Shown piece after piece: positions 2,290 through 36,187 of a stretch of DNA of 64,000 bases. Within the stretch, counting starts at the first letter, position 1; each line of letters begins with the position of its first letter. The notes below the pieces were generated by a model. The model saw nothing but the letters and a program-made list of their open reading frames with translations. It did not search any database and had not been told where the DNA came from. Source of the DNA: an uncultured Alphaproteobacteria bacterium (lineage in GTDB: Bacteria; Pseudomonadota; Alphaproteobacteria; HIMB59); the NCBI GenBank assembly GCA_902599045.1, contig CACKEA010000005.1, forward strand, positions 1-64,000. The letters are read 5' to 3'. The translations under genes were made by a program, and so were the position numbers.

Positions 2290-3792
2290 ATGCAACCAAT
2301 CGTCGAATTTCAGAATATAAATAAAGAATATCCAGGTGTTGTTGCAAACAATAATGTCTCTTTTAAAATTAAAAGACAAACTATTCATGCAATTTTAGGT
2401 GAAAATGGTGCTGGTAAGTCAACTTTAGTAAAAATTTTGTACGGACACGTTAAACCAGACAAAGGTCAAATTATAATCAATTCTGATTTAGCAACTATTA
2501 ATTCACCAACTACAGCTCAAAGTTTAGGTATAAATATGGTTTTCCAACATTTTAGTTTATTTGAGTCGCTGACAGTTGCAGAAAATTTAATACTAGGTAT
2601 GAGTGAAAAAATATCGTTAAGTAAACTAAAATCAAAATCTGAAACTATATGCAACAAGTATGGTTTTAATCTAAATCTAAATTCACCTATAAGCGCACTT
2701 TCTGTAGGTCAAAGACAATCTGTAGAGATTGTTAGATCTCTTTTAAACAATCCAGAAATTTTGATAATGGACGAACCTACCTCTGTCTTAACTCCCGAGG
2801 AGATTAAAAAATTATTTAAAATTATAAAAAAATTAGTAGCCGATGGTTTAACAGTAATTTTTATATCTCATAAATTAGATGAGATTATTAATTTATCAGA
2901 TCATGTAACAATTATGAGAAACGGAAAAGTAGTAAGCAATTTAACTACTAAGAACGAGGATCCTGAAAGCTTGGGTTATAAAATGTTAGGTTATAAAGTA
3001 TCTAAAACTAAACAGATAAATAATATTAATTACTCAGAGGATGTATTAAGTTTAAATAACTTATCTTCATATTCTCAAGATCCATTCACAACTAATTTAA
3101 ATAAAATTAATTTCAAATTAAAAAAGGGACAAATTTTTGGTATTGCTGGTGTTGCAGGTAATGGCCAAAAAGAGTTAATGGAAGTTCTATTAAACGAAAA
3201 TGATTTAGAGTTTAATGGAAATATAATTTTTAAAAACATTAACATCAATAAATTATCTACATTTCAAAGAAAATCTTTATCTATTTCTTATGTAACCGAG
3301 CAGAGATTGGGTCATAGTGCAGTTCCTGAAATGTCTCTAAGTGAAAATATTTTACTAAGCATGAATCATAAAACTGAGTTCAAAAGAGGTGATTTTATTA
3401 ATTTTGATACAATTAATTCTTACGCTAATGATGTAATCAAAAATTTTAATGTTGATACTCCCTCATTTAATGTCAAAGCTGGAAAGCTATCAGGTGGCAA
3501 TCTTCAAAAATTTATAATTGGAAGAGAAATCATGTCTAATCCTGAATTATTAATTTTATCTCAACCAACATGGGGTATAGATGCAGGCTCTGAGGCTTTT
3601 ATAAAAAAGTCTTTAATAGAATTATCACAAAGAGGAGTTTCAATAATTATTATTTCTCATGACTTAGATGAGCTTCTTGAAGTATGTCATAATATCTCTG
3701 TTTTATATGAGGGATCACTATCAAAATCTTTAAATGTTGAGAATATAGATATATCTAAATTAGGTAAGTATATGGGTGGCCTATTTGATTAG
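2290..3792 (+). CDS. BMP-type (nucleoside-like) ABC importer, tandem ATPase subunit
   Basis: Cytoplasmic ATPase with two ABC domains in one chain, the form used by BMP-family nucleoside importers and by sugar importers. Domain 1 has Walker A GENGAGKST near residues 38-46, signature LSVGQRQ and Walker B LIMDEPT. Domain 2 has a degenerate Walker A (GVAGNGQKE), signature LSGGNLQK and the site LILSQPTWGID, the usual asymmetry of this class. Two permeases follow directly, with a 17-base overlap, and a BMP-family binding protein comes next. The neighbouring permeases decide for the BMP class rather than a ribose-type importer. Confidence 0.93.
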   Translation: MQPIVEFQNINKEYPGVVANNNVSFKIKRQTIHAILGENGAGKSTLVKILYGHVKPDKGQIIINSDLATINSPTTAQSLGINMVFQHFSLFESLTVAENLILGMSEKISLSKLKSKSETICNKYGFNLNLNSPISALSVGQRQSVEIVRSLLNNPEILIMDEPTSVLTPEEIKKLFKIIKKLVADGLTVIFISHKLDEIINLSDHVTIMRNGKVVSNLTTKNEDPESLGYKMLGYKVSKTKQINNINYSEDVLSLNNLSSYSQDPFTTNLNKINFKLKKGQIFGIAGVAGNGQKELMEVLLNENDLEFNGNIIFKNININKLSTFQRKSLSISYVTEQRLGHSAVPEMSLSENILLSMNHKTEFKRGDFINFDTINSYANDVIKNFNVDTPSFNVKAGKLSGGNLQKFIIGREIMSNPELLILSQPTWGIDAGSEAFIKKSLIELSQRGVSIIIISHDLDELLEVCHNISVLYEGSLSKSLNVENIDISKLGKYMGGLFD

Positions 3793-4837
3793 CATAAAAT
3801 TAAGAGAGGACTATTCTAATTTTATATTTTATTTATCTCCCTTAGTAGCTGTGTTTTTAACACTATTTTTTGGCTCATTTATATTTTTAATTTTAGATTT
3901 AAGTCCAATTGAGTCTTTTAAAATCTTTTTCATTAGCCCTATTTCTAATTCATACGGTATCTCAGAATTGTTTGTTAAAGCGACTCCACTTGCTATCATC
4001 GCTCTTGGTTTATCATACTGTTTTAAAAATAATATCTACAATATTGGAGCTGAAGGTCAGTTAACAATGGGAGCTATCTTTGGAGGAGGGATAGGACTCT
4101 TGTTTAATAACTCTTCGAGTATTTTATTACTTCCTTCAATGATTTTATTTGGAGCTATTGGAGGTGCTTTTTGGGCTACGATACCAGCTCTTTTAAAAAC
4201 AAAATTTAATACTAATGAGATTTTAACTAGTTTGATGCTGACTTATGTTGCACTTTTTATACTCGATTATTTTGTTGTTGGTCCTTGGAAAGATCCAGAT
4301 GGCTATGGTCTTCCCAAATCAATGCCGTTCCCAGAATCTGGAAGACTCCCAGTGTTATTTGATGGTCTTCGAATTCACATCGGTGTTTATTTTGCCATAA
4401 TAATTTGTTTCATTTCTTATATTGTCTTCAATAAGACTTTATTTGGTTTTAAGTTAAGAGTCTCAGGCTTTAGTTCTAAAGCATCTCAATATGCTGGTTT
4501 TAAATATAAAAATTTAATTTTTTATACTTTTATTATTAGCGGAGCCTGTGCAGGATTAGCCGGATTATTTGAAGTTTCTGGACCAATAGGTCTGTTATAT
4601 AGGGATATTTCTCCAAACTATGGATTTACTGCAATTATTGTGGCATTTTTGGGGAGACTTAACCCCATCGGAATAATTTTATCATCATTGTTGATTGCTT
4701 TAACTTATTTGGGTGCTGAAGATGCCCAATTATTTTTAAAAATACCCTCAGCTGTGGGTTTTGTTTTTCAGGGCTTAGTTCTATTTTTTTTATTAGGAAC
4801 AGACTTCCTCAATAAATATAGGATATCAATAAAATGA
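3776..4837 (+). CDS. BMP-type ABC importer permease 1
   Basis: Integral inner-membrane permease of the branched-chain/ribose permease superfamily, 353 residues with about eight to ten hydrophobic segments. The motif NIGAEGQLTMGA near residue 85 is characteristic of the first permease of BMP-type nucleoside importers. The start overlaps the ATPase by 17 bases, and its stop overlaps the second permease by 4 bases, so the complex is translated as a coupled unit. The purine-related neighbour at 6923 supports nucleoside import, but the ligand is inferred. Confidence 0.92.
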   Translation: MAYLISIKLREDYSNFIFYLSPLVAVFLTLFFGSFIFLILDLSPIESFKIFFISPISNSYGISELFVKATPLAIIALGLSYCFKNNIYNIGAEGQLTMGAIFGGGIGLLFNNSSSILLLPSMILFGAIGGAFWATIPALLKTKFNTNEILTSLMLTYVALFILDYFVVGPWKDPDGYGLPKSMPFPESGRLPVLFDGLRIHIGVYFAIIICFISYIVFNKTLFGFKLRVSGFSSKASQYAGFKYKNLIFYTFIISGACAGLAGLFEVSGPIGLLYRDISPNYGFTAIIVAFLGRLNPIGIILSSLLIALTYLGAEDAQLFLKIPSAVGFVFQGLVLFFLLGTDFLNKYRISIK

Positions 4838-30682: not shown

Positions 30683-30882
30683 ACTTTACCAAAATTTTAA
30701 AAAATTTAAACAATTCTTATATTTATTAATTTTTAATCCTATAAAAATTTCATATAATATGAAAAATCATATTAGAATAGTTGAATTGTATAAACTTTTT
30801 AAGCATCTAATATTAATGACAATAAACTTATTCTTCATCTTTTTTACTTCAGATATTGATAAAAAAATCTATTTTAAACATT

Positions 30883-32070
30883 GTGAAGCAAGATTTTAAC
30901 AGAATTGATCGTTTACCTCCTTATATATTTGGAGAGATAAATAAACTTAAAGCAAAACTTAGAAAAAATGGAAAAGATATTATTGATTTTGGCATGGGCA
31001 ATCCAGACATGCCAACACCTAAGCATATTAGAGACAAATTAAAAGAAGTAACTGATAAACCAGGAACAGGTAGGTACTCTATGAGTAAGGGAGTACCTGG
31101 TTTAAGAAAAGCTCAAGCTAAATATTATCAAAAAAGATTTGGTGTTAAATTAAATCCTGACAGTGAAGTAATAGTAACTTTAGGTTCTAAAGAGGGTTTG
31201 GCTAACTTAGCTCAAGCAATTTCAACACCTGGTGATATTATTATCTCACCTAATCCTTCATATCCTATTCACCCTTATGGATTTATTATAGCTGGTGCTT
31301 CACTAAGACATCTACAGACCATGAAAGATGGTATTTTTGATCCTGAAACATACTTAGAAAGATTGGATCGCTCTATTAGAAATAGTTCACCTTCACCTGT
31401 CGCATTAATAGTTTCTTTCCCCTCTAATCCAACTGCACAAGTAGTAGATTTAGATTTTTATAAGGAAATTATTAAGATGGCATTGAAATATAATGTTTAT
31501 GTTTTATCTGATCTTGCTTATGCAGAGATATACTTTGATAAGAAACCACCACCTTCCATTTTACAAGTTAATCGAGCCAAAGAAATTGCTGTTGAGTTTA
31601 CTTCAATGTCAAAGACATATGCTATGGCTGGTTGGAGAATAGGTTTTGCTGTTGGCAATAAAAAACTAATTGAAGCTTTAACTAAAATTAAATCTTACCT
31701 AGATTATGGAGCTTTCACTCCTGTTCAAGTTGCAGCTGCTACCGCCCTTAATGGACCTCAATCATGTGTCTCTGAAATTAGGTCTATTTATGAGAGCAGA
31801 AGAAATGTCTTAGTAGAGTCAATGTCACGATCAGGTTGGAATATCCCCAGTCCTAAAGCGAGTATGTTTGCATGGGCACCTATACCTAAAAAGTACCAAA
31901 ATAAAGGATCTTTAAAATTTGCTAAGGATTTAATGACAAAAGCTGAAGTAGCTGTTTCGCCAGGTATCGCTTTTGGTGAATATGGCGAGGGTTTTGTGCG
32001 AATAGGCTTAGTAGAAAATGAGCAAAGAATCCGCCAAGCAGCTAAAAATGTACGTAATTTAAAGCTTTAG
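30883..32070 (+). CDS. Class I aminotransferase (AlaC / LL-DAP-aminotransferase-like)
   Basis: PLP-dependent fold-type I aminotransferase of about 395 residues. It shows DFGMGNPDMPTP near the start, VTLGSKEGLANL, FPSNPTAQ and the PLP-Lys motif SMSKTYAMAGWRIGF. The pattern matches the AlaC/YfdZ group that includes alanine and LL-diaminopimelate aminotransferase relatives. A GTG at 30883 agrees with family N-termini (FNRIDRLPPYIF); a TTG at 30856 would add nine residues. It lies 76 bases before the P-loop gene and may be co-transcribed with it. Confidence 0.85.
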   Translation: MKQDFNRIDRLPPYIFGEINKLKAKLRKNGKDIIDFGMGNPDMPTPKHIRDKLKEVTDKPGTGRYSMSKGVPGLRKAQAKYYQKRFGVKLNPDSEVIVTLGSKEGLANLAQAISTPGDIIISPNPSYPIHPYGFIIAGASLRHLQTMKDGIFDPETYLERLDRSIRNSSPSPVALIVSFPSNPTAQVVDLDFYKEIIKMALKYNVYVLSDLAYAEIYFDKKPPPSILQVNRAKEIAVEFTSMSKTYAMAGWRIGFAVGNKKLIEALTKIKSYLDYGAFTPVQVAAATALNGPQSCVSEIRSIYESRRNVLVESMSRSGWNIPSPKASMFAWAPIPKKYQNKGSLKFAKDLMTKAEVAVSPGIAFGEYGEGFVRIGLVENEQRIRQAAKNVRNLKL

Positions 32071-32146: not shown

Positions 32147-33193
32147 ATGATTAATACAAAAAAAATAGGCTCTGTACTTAAAAACATCAATAATATAGAT
32201 GAATTGAGTATCTCTGATTTGATTGATTGTAATCAAGGGCAACTAATTGCAGTTAAAGTAATTTCAGTTAATCCTAATTACAATAAGTTAGAGCTAATTT
32301 CTGGAAGAATTACTGAATTAACTGAAGGAGATATTATCGTTGGTGCTTTAGGTAATAGGATTGCATCCTCAGGGATGACAGGATCTGTTCCTTCTGAGTT
32401 AAATAAACACGATAAAATTCATATTTTAAATTTGGGAGGTGTCATTGGTAATTGTAAAGATTTCAATATTCTCTTAGGCCCAGCTACAGAATGTGAAGTG
32501 CTTGGATCTATTATAGGTAAAACTAATAAACAATTGAATTTAGTAGATTATTCAAAAATTAAAGAAAATAAGATAATAAATAAAATTCCATCAATAGCTG
32601 TTATTGGCACCGGTATAGACTCAGGAAAAACGACAGTAACTTCTTTTATAATTAAAACACTCAGTAATTATTATAAGAAAATTAATGCATGTAAGTTAGC
32701 AGGCACTGCTTCCCAGAAAGATCTATACTCTTATGAAGATAATGGAGCTTATAAAACGTCAGATTTTGTAGATTATGGTCTTCCAAGTACCTGTATGAAT
32801 GACAAAGAAACTATACAAAATTGTTCAGCCTCTATTATTAGTCATATGTCAGAAGATGCAGAAATAATTTTAATGGAATTAGGAGATGGCTATCATGGAG
32901 ATTATGGAACCAAGGAAATCATTCAAAATACTGAAATTACGGAGTCAATCGAAGTAATTATTATTTGTGCTTACGACGTATCAGGGGCAGTTAATATAAT
33001 TGAAAACCTAAAATTAAATAATCTAGACGATAAATTATTGATTATAAGCGGACCCGTTACAAATAATGTCTCTGCATACAAACAATCTATTGATAAATTT
33101 TCTATACCTAATTCAGACTTTTTAAATATTTATAATTCAACTAACCATGTCAATGTTTTTGCTAAAATAATCAATAGGATTAATAATGATTAA
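32147..33193 (+). CDS. P-loop protein of unknown function in an arginine-like gene cluster
   Basis: 348 residues in two parts. Residues 1-145 form a beta-rich domain with GRITELTEGDIIVGALGNR and HILNLGGVIGNCKD. Residues 148-348 are a P-loop domain with Walker A GTGIDSGKT (154-162), an acidic strand IILMELGDGYHGDYG and a C-terminal Rossmann-like half. The P-loop half resembles dethiobiotin synthetase/MobB-type proteins and, more weakly, DUF1611 proteins, some of which are N-acetyltransferases acting on glutamate. The family is not recognised with certainty. It overlaps the ArgC-like gene by 8 bases, so it probably works in the same pathway. Confidence 0.6.
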   Translation: MINTKKIGSVLKNINNIDELSISDLIDCNQGQLIAVKVISVNPNYNKLELISGRITELTEGDIIVGALGNRIASSGMTGSVPSELNKHDKIHILNLGGVIGNCKDFNILLGPATECEVLGSIIGKTNKQLNLVDYSKIKENKIINKIPSIAVIGTGIDSGKTTVTSFIIKTLSNYYKKINACKLAGTASQKDLYSYEDNGAYKTSDFVDYGLPSTCMNDKETIQNCSASIISHMSEDAEIILMELGDGYHGDYGTKEIIQNTEITESIEVIIICAYDVSGAVNIIENLKLNNLDDKLLIISGPVTNNVSAYKQSIDKFSIPNSDFLNIYNSTNHVNVFAKIINRINND

Positions 33194-34178
33194 AGTAGGT
33201 ATAATAGGAGCTAATGGATATTTAGGTATAGAGTTAATACGAATTCTTTCTATGCATCCAAATGTAAAATTATCAAAAATTTTTCAAAGAGAATTACCAA
33301 TTGATGAGGAGTTTCCTCATTTACAATCATTAAACTTAAAAGACATACAAACTGAAAACTTTGATGATTTTAAAAATTTAGATTGTGTTTTTTTAGCATT
33401 ACCTCACGGTTCAGCTCATGAATATGTAAAAGAATTAATATCAAAAGTTAAAATTATAGATCTGAGTTCTGATTTTAGAATTTCTAATCAAGAAGATTAT
33501 AATAAATATTATAAATCTAATTTTGATGTTAATACTCAAAGTCAGTTTCAATATGGCTTCATTGAAAATTCAGGCGATGAAATAAAAAAATCTTCAAATA
33601 TTTCCAACCCAGGGTGTTTTGCATTAACAACACAGTTATCTTTATTGCCATTTCACTCCATAATTAAAAATGTATCTGTAACTGCTATTACAGGATCTAG
33701 TGGTGGTGGTAAAAATCCAACAAACAAAAATCATCATTCGACAAGATCTAAAGATATTTTTTCTTATAATATCAACTCCCATCGCCACTTGGCTGAAATT
33801 TATCAATCTTTTCCAAATTTAAGAAAAAACCTCTCTTTTGTGCCATTATCAGGGCCTTTTTCAAGAGGGATATATTTAACTAGTCATATTGAAACAAAAG
33901 AAACCATCAATAATGAATTTTTAGACTCATGTTTGGCAGATTGTTTTAAATCCGCTCCTTTTATAAGAATTCAAAATGATACCAAACTTTCAAATGTGGT
34001 TGGCTCAAACTTCTGTGATATTGCCGTTTCCTTTAAGGATGAGAACCATTTTGTTGTTGAGGCATGCTTAGATAATTTAGTGAAAGGTGCCTCTGGTAAC
34101 GCTGTAGAATGCATGAACCTTATCTTTGACCAAGATCAAGCACTTGGATTGGATCAAATAATACCTTTGTACCTATGA
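33186..34178 (+). CDS. argC: N-acetyl-gamma-glutamyl-phosphate reductase-like enzyme
   Basis: 330-residue NADPH-dependent semialdehyde dehydrogenase. The Rossmann motif is GIIGANGYLGIEL near residues 6-18, the active-site Cys144 is in NPGCFALTTQ, and the catalytic His is in the SHRHLAEI region. The motif reads GCFAL rather than the GCYPT of common ArgC, and the loop HHSTRSKDIFSY is closer to what I recall of Bacteroidota-type ArgC. The enzyme should reduce an N-blocked glutamyl phosphate. It overlaps the P-loop gene upstream by 8 bases and the kinase gene downstream by 4. Confidence 0.82.
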   Translation: MIKVGIIGANGYLGIELIRILSMHPNVKLSKIFQRELPIDEEFPHLQSLNLKDIQTENFDDFKNLDCVFLALPHGSAHEYVKELISKVKIIDLSSDFRISNQEDYNKYYKSNFDVNTQSQFQYGFIENSGDEIKKSSNISNPGCFALTTQLSLLPFHSIIKNVSVTAITGSSGGGKNPTNKNHHSTRSKDIFSYNINSHRHLAEIYQSFPNLRKNLSFVPLSGPFSRGIYLTSHIETKETINNEFLDSCLADCFKSAPFIRIQNDTKLSNVVGSNFCDIAVSFKDENHFVVEACLDNLVKGASGNAVECMNLIFDQDQALGLDQIIPLYL

Positions 34179-35026
34179 TTAAAAATCAAAGTTTTTATCA
34201 GTCCATATTACAAAATTCAATTCTTGTAATTAAAGTAAGTGGTAAAATTTGTGATAATCAAGAAAACATTGAGAATGTTATTAGTGACATAAAAGAACTA
34301 TTAAATTCTATTTCTAAATTAAAAGTAGTATTGGTCTTTGGATTTGGAAGACAACTAGATAATTATATGATTAACGTTCATGGTATAGAACCAAAAAAAT
34401 TAAATGGAAGAAGAATAACCTCTTCTCATGATATAGAGGCAGCAAAGAAAATTTCTGGTCAAATATTAATCGACATATTTAGTTTGAGTTCAAGTTATAA
34501 TATTAGAAATTTTCCGATTCCTATTTCTAAAAAAGACTTCATTGCTGCAAAGAGAAGAGAACTAGTTGATGGAGTTGACTATGGTCAAGTAGGAGATGTT
34601 GTGTCTGTTGATGCATTACAAATCAAAAATTTATTTAAGGAACACGATATGATTATTATGCCTAGTTTAGTTTTAGATAAAAATACTTCTGAAGTATTAA
34701 ATGTTAACGCTGATACTATTGCTACAGAATTAGCAATTAATTTGACTGCAAGTAAATTAATTTTTATATCAGACGTTCCATTTATAAAGGATACTGAAGG
34801 AAAAAGAATTTCTGCAGTTGATGAAAAAGTAGCAATAAAGCTTTTTGATGAAAATATTATATCTAATGGAATGATTGTGAAAGTTGAAAACTCCTTAAAG
34901 GCGCTTAATCAAGGTGTTCAAAAAATACACATTATTAGTGGTGAGATAAAGAATGCTCTTATAAATGAGTTAGAGACAGAGGAGGGTATTGGTACAGTCT
35001 TTCAAAAACAATCCCTTGATTATTAA
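34175..35026 (+). CDS. argB: Acetylglutamate kinase-like amino-acid kinase
   Basis: 283-residue amino-acid kinase fold. Conserved NAGK features are LVIKVSGKI (Lys20), NGRRIT (77-82), VDYGQVGDV, LNVNADTIA (175-183) and GMIVKVE (Lys236). The usual glycine-rich substrate loop HGGGPQ is replaced by GFGRQ (56-60), and NGRRIT replaces the common NGLRVT. It probably phosphorylates an N-blocked glutamate, but the blocking group may differ from acetyl. Translation is coupled to the ArgC-like gene, and its end abuts the convergent ArgD-like gene with no gap. Confidence 0.8.
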   Translation: MIKNQSFYQSILQNSILVIKVSGKICDNQENIENVISDIKELLNSISKLKVVLVFGFGRQLDNYMINVHGIEPKKLNGRRITSSHDIEAAKKISGQILIDIFSLSSSYNIRNFPIPISKKDFIAAKRRELVDGVDYGQVGDVVSVDALQIKNLFKEHDMIIMPSLVLDKNTSEVLNVNADTIATELAINLTASKLIFISDVPFIKDTEGKRISAVDEKVAIKLFDENIISNGMIVKVENSLKALNQGVQKIHIISGEIKNALINELETEEGIGTVFQKQSLDY

Positions 35027-36187
35027 TTAATTTAATAAAGATTTAGCAACTATCATAATAGCCTTATTTATTTCAATTTTTGAAACTATTAGAGGAGGTG
35101 TAAGACGTATTATTTTACCTTGTATTAGTGTTGATATTAGTCCATTTCTTGCCATTTTATTATATGTTTTCAAAGCTATTTCATCATTTTTAAATTCTAT
35201 ACCAGCCATCAAACCTAGGCATCTTGTATCAACTATTTTATCTTTGTGATTGTCATGCATTTTTCTAAGTAAGCTTGATAATAATTTACCATTAATCAGT
35301 ACTTTATTTAAAAAAGATTTAGTATTTATAGATTTCAATACGTTGTAAGAAACTCTTGTCTGAAGCATACCTCCACCAAACGTAGATCCATGAAAACCTG
35401 TAGAAATAATATTAGATATATACTTTTTAACAATTGTTGCGCCGATGGGGATACCAGAACCTAATCCTTTAGCAGAGGTTATAATATCTGGGTTAACACC
35501 ATAATGTTTGTATGCAAAAATTTTACCTGTTCGACCTATGCCGCCTTGTATTTCATCTCCAATTAATAAAATTTTCTTACTTTTGCAAATTTCTTTGATA
35601 GCTCTAGCAAAACTTTTAGTACAAATATTGATACCACCATCTCCTTGAATAAATTCTATGATAATGGCTATTGTTTTTTTATTTACTAGTTTTTTGAGAT
35701 GAGAGACATCATTAAACTTACAAAACTTTACTTTACCTGGTACAGGTCCAATATTTGTCTTATATTTTTTATTACTACCAACTGATAAGGCTCCAATTGT
35801 TCTTCCATGAAAAGAGGAAGTCATAGCAATAATCTCATCTTTGCCTTTCTTACTTCCATAGTTTCTTGCTATTTTTAATGCAGCTTCAATGCTCTCTGCA
35901 CCTGAATTTGAAAAGAAAACATCACCTTTGTTAGAATTCTCAGATAATAATTTAGATAATTTAGTCTTGAATTCATGCATTTGTGAGCCAGATAAATGAG
36001 TGATGCCTGTTTTTATTTGATCTTGTAAGCTTTTTTTTACTACTGGGTGATTATAGCCAAGAGAATTAACTGCCACACCTGCTGAAAAATCTAATAATTT
36101 TTTATTATCTGAAGTGTGTAAATAACATCCTCGACCTTTGATAACTTTAAAACTACTAAATTTGTAGGTTTTTAATAAATTATTCAT
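35027..36187 (-). CDS. argD: Acetylornithine aminotransferase-like class III aminotransferase
   Basis: 386-residue class III PLP enzyme. Visible features are FSAGVAVNSLGYNHP, the FFSNSGAESIEAALK segment, FHGRTIGALSV, GDEIQGGIGRTGK and the PLP lysine in ITSAKGLGSGIPIGA. It fits ArgD/AstC/LysJ. It is encoded on the opposite strand and ends back to back with the ArgB-like gene. Together the kinase, reductase and aminotransferase complete the reaction triad from N-blocked glutamate to N-blocked ornithine. Confidence 0.85.
   Translation of the reverse strand: MNNLLKTYKFSSFKVIKGRGCYLHTSDNKKLLDFSAGVAVNSLGYNHPVVKKSLQDQIKTGITHLSGSQMHEFKTKLSKLLSENSNKGDVFFSNSGAESIEAALKIARNYGSKKGKDEIIAMTSSFHGRTIGALSVGSNKKYKTNIGPVPGKVKFCKFNDVSHLKKLVNKKTIAIIIEFIQGDGGINICTKSFARAIKEICKSKKILLIGDEIQGGIGRTGKIFAYKHYGVNPDIITSAKGLGSGIPIGATIVKKYISNIISTGFHGSTFGGGMLQTRVSYNVLKSINTKSFLNKVLINGKLLSSLLRKMHDNHKDKIVDTRCLGLMAGIEFKNDEIALKTYNKMARNGLISTLIQGKIIRLTPPLIVSKIEINKAIMIVAKSLLN

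Follow-up and report, generated by a model that had tools for sequence, protein, structure and literature searches.

The 64,000-nucleotide stretch of DNA analysed here (positions 1 to 64,000 of contig CACKEA010000005.1, assembly GCA_902599045.1; referred to as the window) comes from an uncultured alphaproteobacterium of the HIMB59 lineage and contains a gene for a P-loop protein, followed by genes for ArgC and an ArgB-like kinase and, on the other strand, an ArgD-like aminotransferase. A role of the P-loop protein in arginine synthesis is strongly supported, and the protein probably performs the first, amino-protecting step of the pathway by acylating the alpha-amino group of L-glutamate, as judged from its sequence and genomic setting. 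On the best reading it would be an N-acylglutamate synthase that is neither a GNAT protein nor an ArgJ, a non-homologous replacement for ArgA/ArgJ. That the protein may install the amino-protecting group had been proposed in a sequence-only reading of this DNA, and this is still the best inference, given the absence of ArgJ, the conserved argC/argB neighbourhood and the lack of a second argB or an ArgA.

Distribution of the P-loop gene and of ArgJ

Across the order, 162 genomes were searched, 52 from the window's genus and 110 others. The P-loop gene was present in 42 of the 52 genus genomes and in 0 of the 110 others, while ArgJ was found in 82 of the 110 others and in 0 of the 52. The two genes are mutually exclusive in the genomes searched, and the P-loop gene takes the genomic part played by ArgJ elsewhere in the order. 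Since many of the genomes are only partly complete, little weight is given to single absences, on which the exclusion pattern does not depend. A genus genome assembled in a single contig and 99% complete (G111) has the P-loop gene and no ArgJ. The window's own genome (G000; 1.37 Mb, 94.8% complete) gave no match to the ArgJ family PF01960 in a search whose control was positive in 10 of 14 genomes, and the P-loop protein itself has no match to this family. An argJ elsewhere in the genome, which the sequence-only reading had named as evidence that would speak against it, was therefore looked for and found neither there nor in any of the 52 genus genomes searched.

The locus and the arginine pathway of the window's genome

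The P-loop gene is a member of an operon with argC and the argB-like gene. The four genes are as follows.

32147..33193, forward strand: gene of the P-loop protein, 348 amino acids (aa), ATG start, proposed N-acylglutamate synthase (open reading frame call, profile scores, conservation, clade)
33186..34178, forward strand: ArgC, N-acyl-gamma-glutamyl-phosphate reductase, with Cys144 in a PGC motif (TIGR01850 over cut-off; alignment with E. coli ArgC)
34175..35026, forward strand: ArgB-like N-acylglutamate kinase, 283 aa (profile scores, alignment)
35027..36187, reverse strand: ArgD-like class III aminotransferase, convergent with the operon (open reading frame call, profile scores)

As first read from the sequence, the P-loop gene overlaps argC by 8 bases, which agrees to the base with the coordinates, the overlap between argC and the kinase gene is 4 bases, and argD adjoins on the opposite strand with the junction at 35026/35027. 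A scan of genome contigs with two N-terminal peptide patterns returned the HIMB59 group alone, with 40 loci at 63-99% identity. The order P-loop gene, argC, argB with an opposed argD is kept in 36 of these 40 loci, which puts the arrangement far beyond chance. The other four have less than 1 kb of DNA left downstream of the P-loop gene; in one of them (L059), a cut-short argC runs into a piece of argD on the same strand at the contig end.

ArgC passes TIGR01850 (294.7 bits, cut-off 233.6) and keeps the catalytic cysteine and histidines in the alignment with E. coli ArgC. The kinase belongs to the AAK family (PF00696, 92.9 bits) and scores 127.3 bits on the argB model TIGR00761, under the cut-off of 151.3, and slightly higher, 140.1 bits, on PRK05279 for the kinase-like part of ArgA, where the cut-off is 344. 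Its homologue in G429 passes TIGR00761 at 197.4 bits and that in locus L131 just fails at 149.0. In the alignment, the window's kinase retains the counterparts of the catalytic K8, D162 and K217 in E. coli NAGK, and all three are replaced in E. coli ArgA. Its ArgA-like profile score therefore does not imply a dead kinase. The glycine loop reads FGFG in all three HIMB59-group rows aligned, HGGG in E. coli ArgB and the G429 homologue, and YGGG in the homologues of G768 and G842; from the sequence, the FGFG loop may reflect a different acyl group or mere drift. ArgD scores 386.8 bits on TIGR00707, where the cut-off is 410.

Four AAK proteins were found in the own genome, and since the three others pass the cut-offs for aspartate kinase, glutamate 5-kinase and UMP kinase, the genome has no classical ArgA or bifunctional NAGS/K. 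The arginine kinase contains no GNAT part, nor was an AAK-GNAT fusion present among the four proteins. The search for argA and a second argB that the sequence-only reading had suggested thus returned neither an ArgA-type AAK protein nor a second argB in this genome, and the argE search that went with it returned no ArgE-like M20 peptidase: the only M20 peptidase found lies beside a DapD-like gene and scores as DapE over two cut-offs. Of two carbamoyltransferases in the genome, the one in locus L043 scores best on ornithine carbamoyltransferase, below its cut-off.

The P-loop gene in arginine operons of other families

A profile built from the genus proteins matched 5 of 398 genomes of the phylum, the own genome included. 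A wider profile matched 23 of 385 genomes of the class, three of them from the window's genus; G559, G598, G612 and G667, which gave weak partial matches round the P-loop (E 5e-6 to 4e-7), were excluded from the family. The arginine-linked subfamily recurs in three further families. In G429 the gene order is ArgR, P-loop, ArgC, ArgB, where ArgR has both Pfam domains over cut-off and reaches 110.1 bits against 130.45 on the whole-length NCBIfam model, and in G768 and G842 it is P-loop, ArgC, ArgB, ArgD, ArgF, with the ArgF of locus L132 over cut-off on ornithine carbamoyltransferase. In the order of G768, the P-loop profile matched 39 of 142 genomes, and 38 of the 39 loci were taken (families f208 and f242), leaving out G921 with its weaker, paralogue-like match. 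In 36 of these 38 loci, argC and argB come after the P-loop gene; in L219 the DNA ends 299 bases downstream of the P-loop gene. The four f242 loci have the order ArgG, ArgH, P-loop, ArgC, ArgB, ArgD, ArgF, and in L199 ArgG and ArgH were scored over cut-off. An M20 amidohydrolase gene lies upstream on the same strand in 16 of the 38 f208/f242 loci and on the opposite strand in one more; as a deacylase it is only suggestive, because oligopeptide-permease-like genes often accompany it. The argC/argB neighbourhood, whose lack of conservation would have counted against the sequence-only reading, is thus kept across the genus and three further families.

These operons bear on the explanation that a standard synthase was missed and that the P-loop gene serves another pathway sharing ArgC/ArgB/ArgD-like enzymes, for example that of a modified amino acid. 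The unusual FGFG loop of the kinase and its score below the argB cut-off fit such a pathway. However, the operons of the relatives also contain ArgR, ArgF, ArgG and ArgH, which identifies their pathway as that of arginine, and the own genome has a single ArgB-like kinase, which makes this explanation very improbable.

The wider P-loop family, which occurs in other settings as well, serves as a control. Among 20 genomes with members of this family, ArgJ is absent in 4 of 4 with the arginine-linked form (three families), so that this form recurs in genomes without argJ as the sequence-only reading had asked, and present in 16 of 16 others. In the 16 others, no argC or argB was labelled within about 5 kb of the P-loop gene, the stretches of L136 and L143 being cut by contig ends; G465 has an ArgD-like aminotransferase gene about 1.5 kb away on the other strand, in a cluster that looks arginine-catabolic by eye. 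In a tree of 55 proteins, 38 arginine-type rows are split off by one branch (support 94/77; 92% of 200 bootstrap trees), forming a single arginine-linked clade placed next to an M20-linked pair. Long branches and the midpoint root limit the deeper order of this tree, from which the four f242 proteins were left out and in which L216 counted as arginine-type by sequence.

Outside the arginine-linked clade, the family gene has as its neighbour either an M20 hydrolase or a CydDC-like ABC transporter, the latter often together with a histidine kinase and response regulator. A recurring set of P-loop gene, CydDC-like single-chain ABC transporter, histidine kinase and probable response regulator was seen in L105, L133, L138 and L139. 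In the sister clade of the arginine type, the gene stands beside an M20 hydrolase (L104 8133-10341; L144 6830-9204), scored in L104 as of the glutamate-carboxypeptidase/ArgE-DapE kind. This pairing suggests linked make-and-break amide chemistry.

Domains and fold of the P-loop protein

The protein consists of two domains, as follows.

32147..32566, forward strand: N-terminal beta-rich domain, about residues 1-140 (alignment; strands in predicted model)
32579..33190, forward strand: C-terminal nucleotide-binding domain, residues 145-348, dethiobiotin/CTP-synthetase fold (alignment; predicted model)
32606..32632, forward strand: P-loop GTGIDSGKT, residues 154-162 (sequence; alignment)

Both the P-loop motif and the beta-rich N-terminal domain had been read from the sequence; the motif is located as given, and the strands are seen in the predicted model. 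In the alignment of the wider family, G31, R54, G69, R71, G98 and G120 of the N-terminal domain are conserved, G160, K161 and T163 are kept, and K183, D192 and E244 of the C-terminal domain are invariant. Y45, G76, N95, C103, G246, G251, Y253, G254, C274, P303 and N307 are among the residues that are nearly fixed in 42 arginine-type proteins (a set that includes L216, by sequence, and the four f242 proteins) and rare in 17 others.

The protein matches no Pfam or NCBIfam family over cut-off, the best being AAA_26 (PF13500) with 23.8 bits against 27 (E 4.7e-5). A first structure model had a predicted local distance difference test (pLDDT) of 58 and an unusable N-terminal domain; a second reached a pLDDT of 71.3, with low confidence at residues 1-9 and 70-112. 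The structure prediction and structure search, which had been proposed along with the sequence-only reading, gave the dethiobiotin-synthetase/CTP-synthetase fold for the C-terminal domain, which is a nucleotide-binding fold of the BioD/AAA_26 kind in the predicted model. The protein differs from BioD in its extra N-terminal domain, its score below the family cut-off and an identity of 14% over the fold, and no biotin genes were seen near the P-loop gene.

The comparison with DUF1611 made in the sequence-only reading goes no further than a possible likeness of fold, and membership of that family finds no support in the sequence. The P-loop protein had no match to PF07755 at E 0.1, and none was found in G000 or G111; weak matches below the cut-off occur in distant relatives (L104, E 4.5e-4; a relative in G607, E 2.2e-4). 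DUF1611 proteins were among the structure-search matches of the first model and not among the 50 matches listed for the second. The DUF1611/DgcN D-glutamate N-acetyltransferase (EC 2.3.1.312) differs from the P-loop protein, which has no Pfam match and stands in another genomic setting, and the profile-profile probability of 1-5% (1.1 and 4.5%, over 32-41 columns round the P-loop) led us to reject membership; the DUF1611 profile is narrow (21 proteins, Neff about 2), and of the 30 loci behind it, 7 had no open reading frame by motif and 2 of the 23 frames fell outside the length filter. An amino-carrier protection of the LysW type was also rejected, as a motif scan of the window and five loci found no small CxxC protein ending in GE or EE, the motif expected of such carriers. 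No relatives of the P-loop protein were found in viral contigs.

Proposed function and alternative explanations

In the proposed pathway, the P-loop protein would acylate glutamate on its amino group, most likely with acetyl; the protected semialdehyde would then be made by the kinase and ArgC and transaminated by ArgD. A deacylase, possibly the M20 enzyme encoded upstream in the f208/f242 loci and perhaps DapE in HIMB59, would then free ornithine for ArgF, and ArgF, ArgG and ArgH would complete arginine. Acetyl is favoured by the score of ArgC on the N-acetyl model. Place in the operon, exclusion of ArgJ in the genomes searched, the single arginine-linked clade and the nucleotide-binding C-terminal domain are computational results; the step catalysed, glutamate as acceptor, acetyl as the group and a separate deacylase are what we infer.

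Several observations weigh against this proposal. Neither the P-loop gene nor ArgJ was found in 10 of the 52 genus genomes, two of which are at least 90% complete (G126 and G140); a sublineage may have lost arginine synthesis, or the assemblies of these ten may have gaps. In the f208 locus L216, the 6.6 kb or so downstream of an arginine-type P-loop gene yielded no arg gene. BioD and CTP synthetase, which share the fold, work with ATP and not with acyl-CoA. The loss of ArgJ would make a deacylase necessary, and the sole M20 enzyme found in the own genome is DapE. Finally, GNAT proteins are present. The PF00583 search gave two in the own genome, a RimI-like protein (74.2 bits, cut-off 86.4) and one of 142 aa, and the latter, like a protein of 149 aa in G111, has no specific assignment and is about the size of ArgO (146 aa; PMC4490483, in part); 9 GNAT matches were found in G429, 14 in G768 and 8 in G842. 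A short stand-alone GNAT synthase could possibly make N-acetylglutamate.

The chief rival builds on these GNAT proteins: a stand-alone GNAT would make N-acetylglutamate, and the P-loop protein would be a regulator, assembly factor or nucleotide sensor in the arginine operon. This would agree with the high ranks that Foldseek also gives to HypB, SRP and MinD-type NTPases. However, the exclusion of ArgJ is what a functional replacement predicts, and a regulator is not expected to replace ArgJ. Both HIMB59 GNAT genes sit away from the operon, the RimI-like one beside a miaB-like gene and the 142-aa one beside a cysE-like gene (neighbours named by eye), and no GNAT was noticed among the labelled arg-operon genes, where not all unlabelled reading frames were scored. 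We consider this explanation unlikely.

The P-loop protein could instead replace the other half of ArgJ, as an N-acylornithine transacylase or ATP-dependent deacylase, or do both steps like ArgJ. The gene is a one-gene substitute for ArgJ, the HIMB59 genome has no M20 other than DapE, so that, with no ArgE-like enzyme found there, an ArgJ-like double role is possible, and the pairing of the sister clade with an M20 hydrolase means that the chemistry may concern amide bonds. In the f208/f242 loci with the M20 gene upstream, however, an amidohydrolase is already at hand, so that there it is the first step that lacks an enzyme, and we regard such a role as quite unlikely.

Returning to the acylation of glutamate by the P-loop protein, its fold favours an ATP-driven ligation, in which acetate, formate or bicarbonate would be activated as a phosphate and joined to the glutamate amino group without coenzyme A. 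We hold this variant, drawn by analogy to the fold relatives, to be conceivable at rather low probability. With carbamate as the group, no ArgE would be needed in HIMB59, which fits the finding that no ArgE-like M20 was detected there. If true, arginine would be made here through a protecting chemistry that is new for the pathway.

Neighbouring genes

Upstream of the P-loop gene lies a further aminotransferase gene that is conserved in the genus.

30856..32070, forward strand: AlaC/DapC-like class I aminotransferase, upstream of the P-loop gene (profile score; neighbour conserved in genus)

It scores over cut-off on PRK09148, labelled LL-diaminopimelate aminotransferase, and the genome also has the DapD-like and DapE genes; we do not argue for its membership in the arginine set. 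Among the related loci, a secreted-looking hydrolase of about 320 aa was seen by eye between argD and argB in L038 (4005-4970), L040 (3695-4657) and L041 (about 3746-4475), and two genes, sulfotransferase-like and branched-chain aminotransferase-like by eye, lie between argD and lysR in L039 (10525-12143). In L041 (G117), the P-loop gene, argB, argC, guaA and guaB are each split into pieces, a pattern that suggests faulty assembly and not a loss of genes.

Relation to known systems and significance

The enzymes known for the first step comprise GNAT proteins of several architectures, ArgJ, and a type from Corynebacterium that is unrelated (PMC4490483, in part). The ArgA/GNAT synthases (classical, NAGS/K, S-NAGS, ArgO and the ArgH fusion) share the proposed step before ArgB and ArgC with the P-loop protein, in which no GNAT domain was detected and which instead has a dethiobiotin/CTP-synthetase-fold domain and a beta-rich N-terminal domain. 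Bacteroides uses a succinyl variant of the pathway with another acyl group and another first enzyme (PMC7311316, in part); there, a BT3761-type synthase and a succinylornithine transcarbamylase are found, whereas here ArgF scores best on ornithine carbamoyltransferase. Among the matches listed in the open-access literature, which leaves subscription papers and preprints outside, no description of a P-loop enzyme for this step was found, and the word 'arginine' does not occur in the main text of PMC10308909.

A P-loop enzyme at this position, if true, would be another independent way of starting arginine synthesis. For the HIMB59/AEGEAN-169 group of the ocean and no fewer than three further alphaproteobacterial families, it would fill a gap in annotation, and such bacteria could escape being taken for arginine auxotrophs. 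One branch of the P-loop family would thereby gain its first function, and there would be a lead on the chemistry of the other branches, whose genes are found next to those of ABC exporters, two-component systems and M20 hydrolases.

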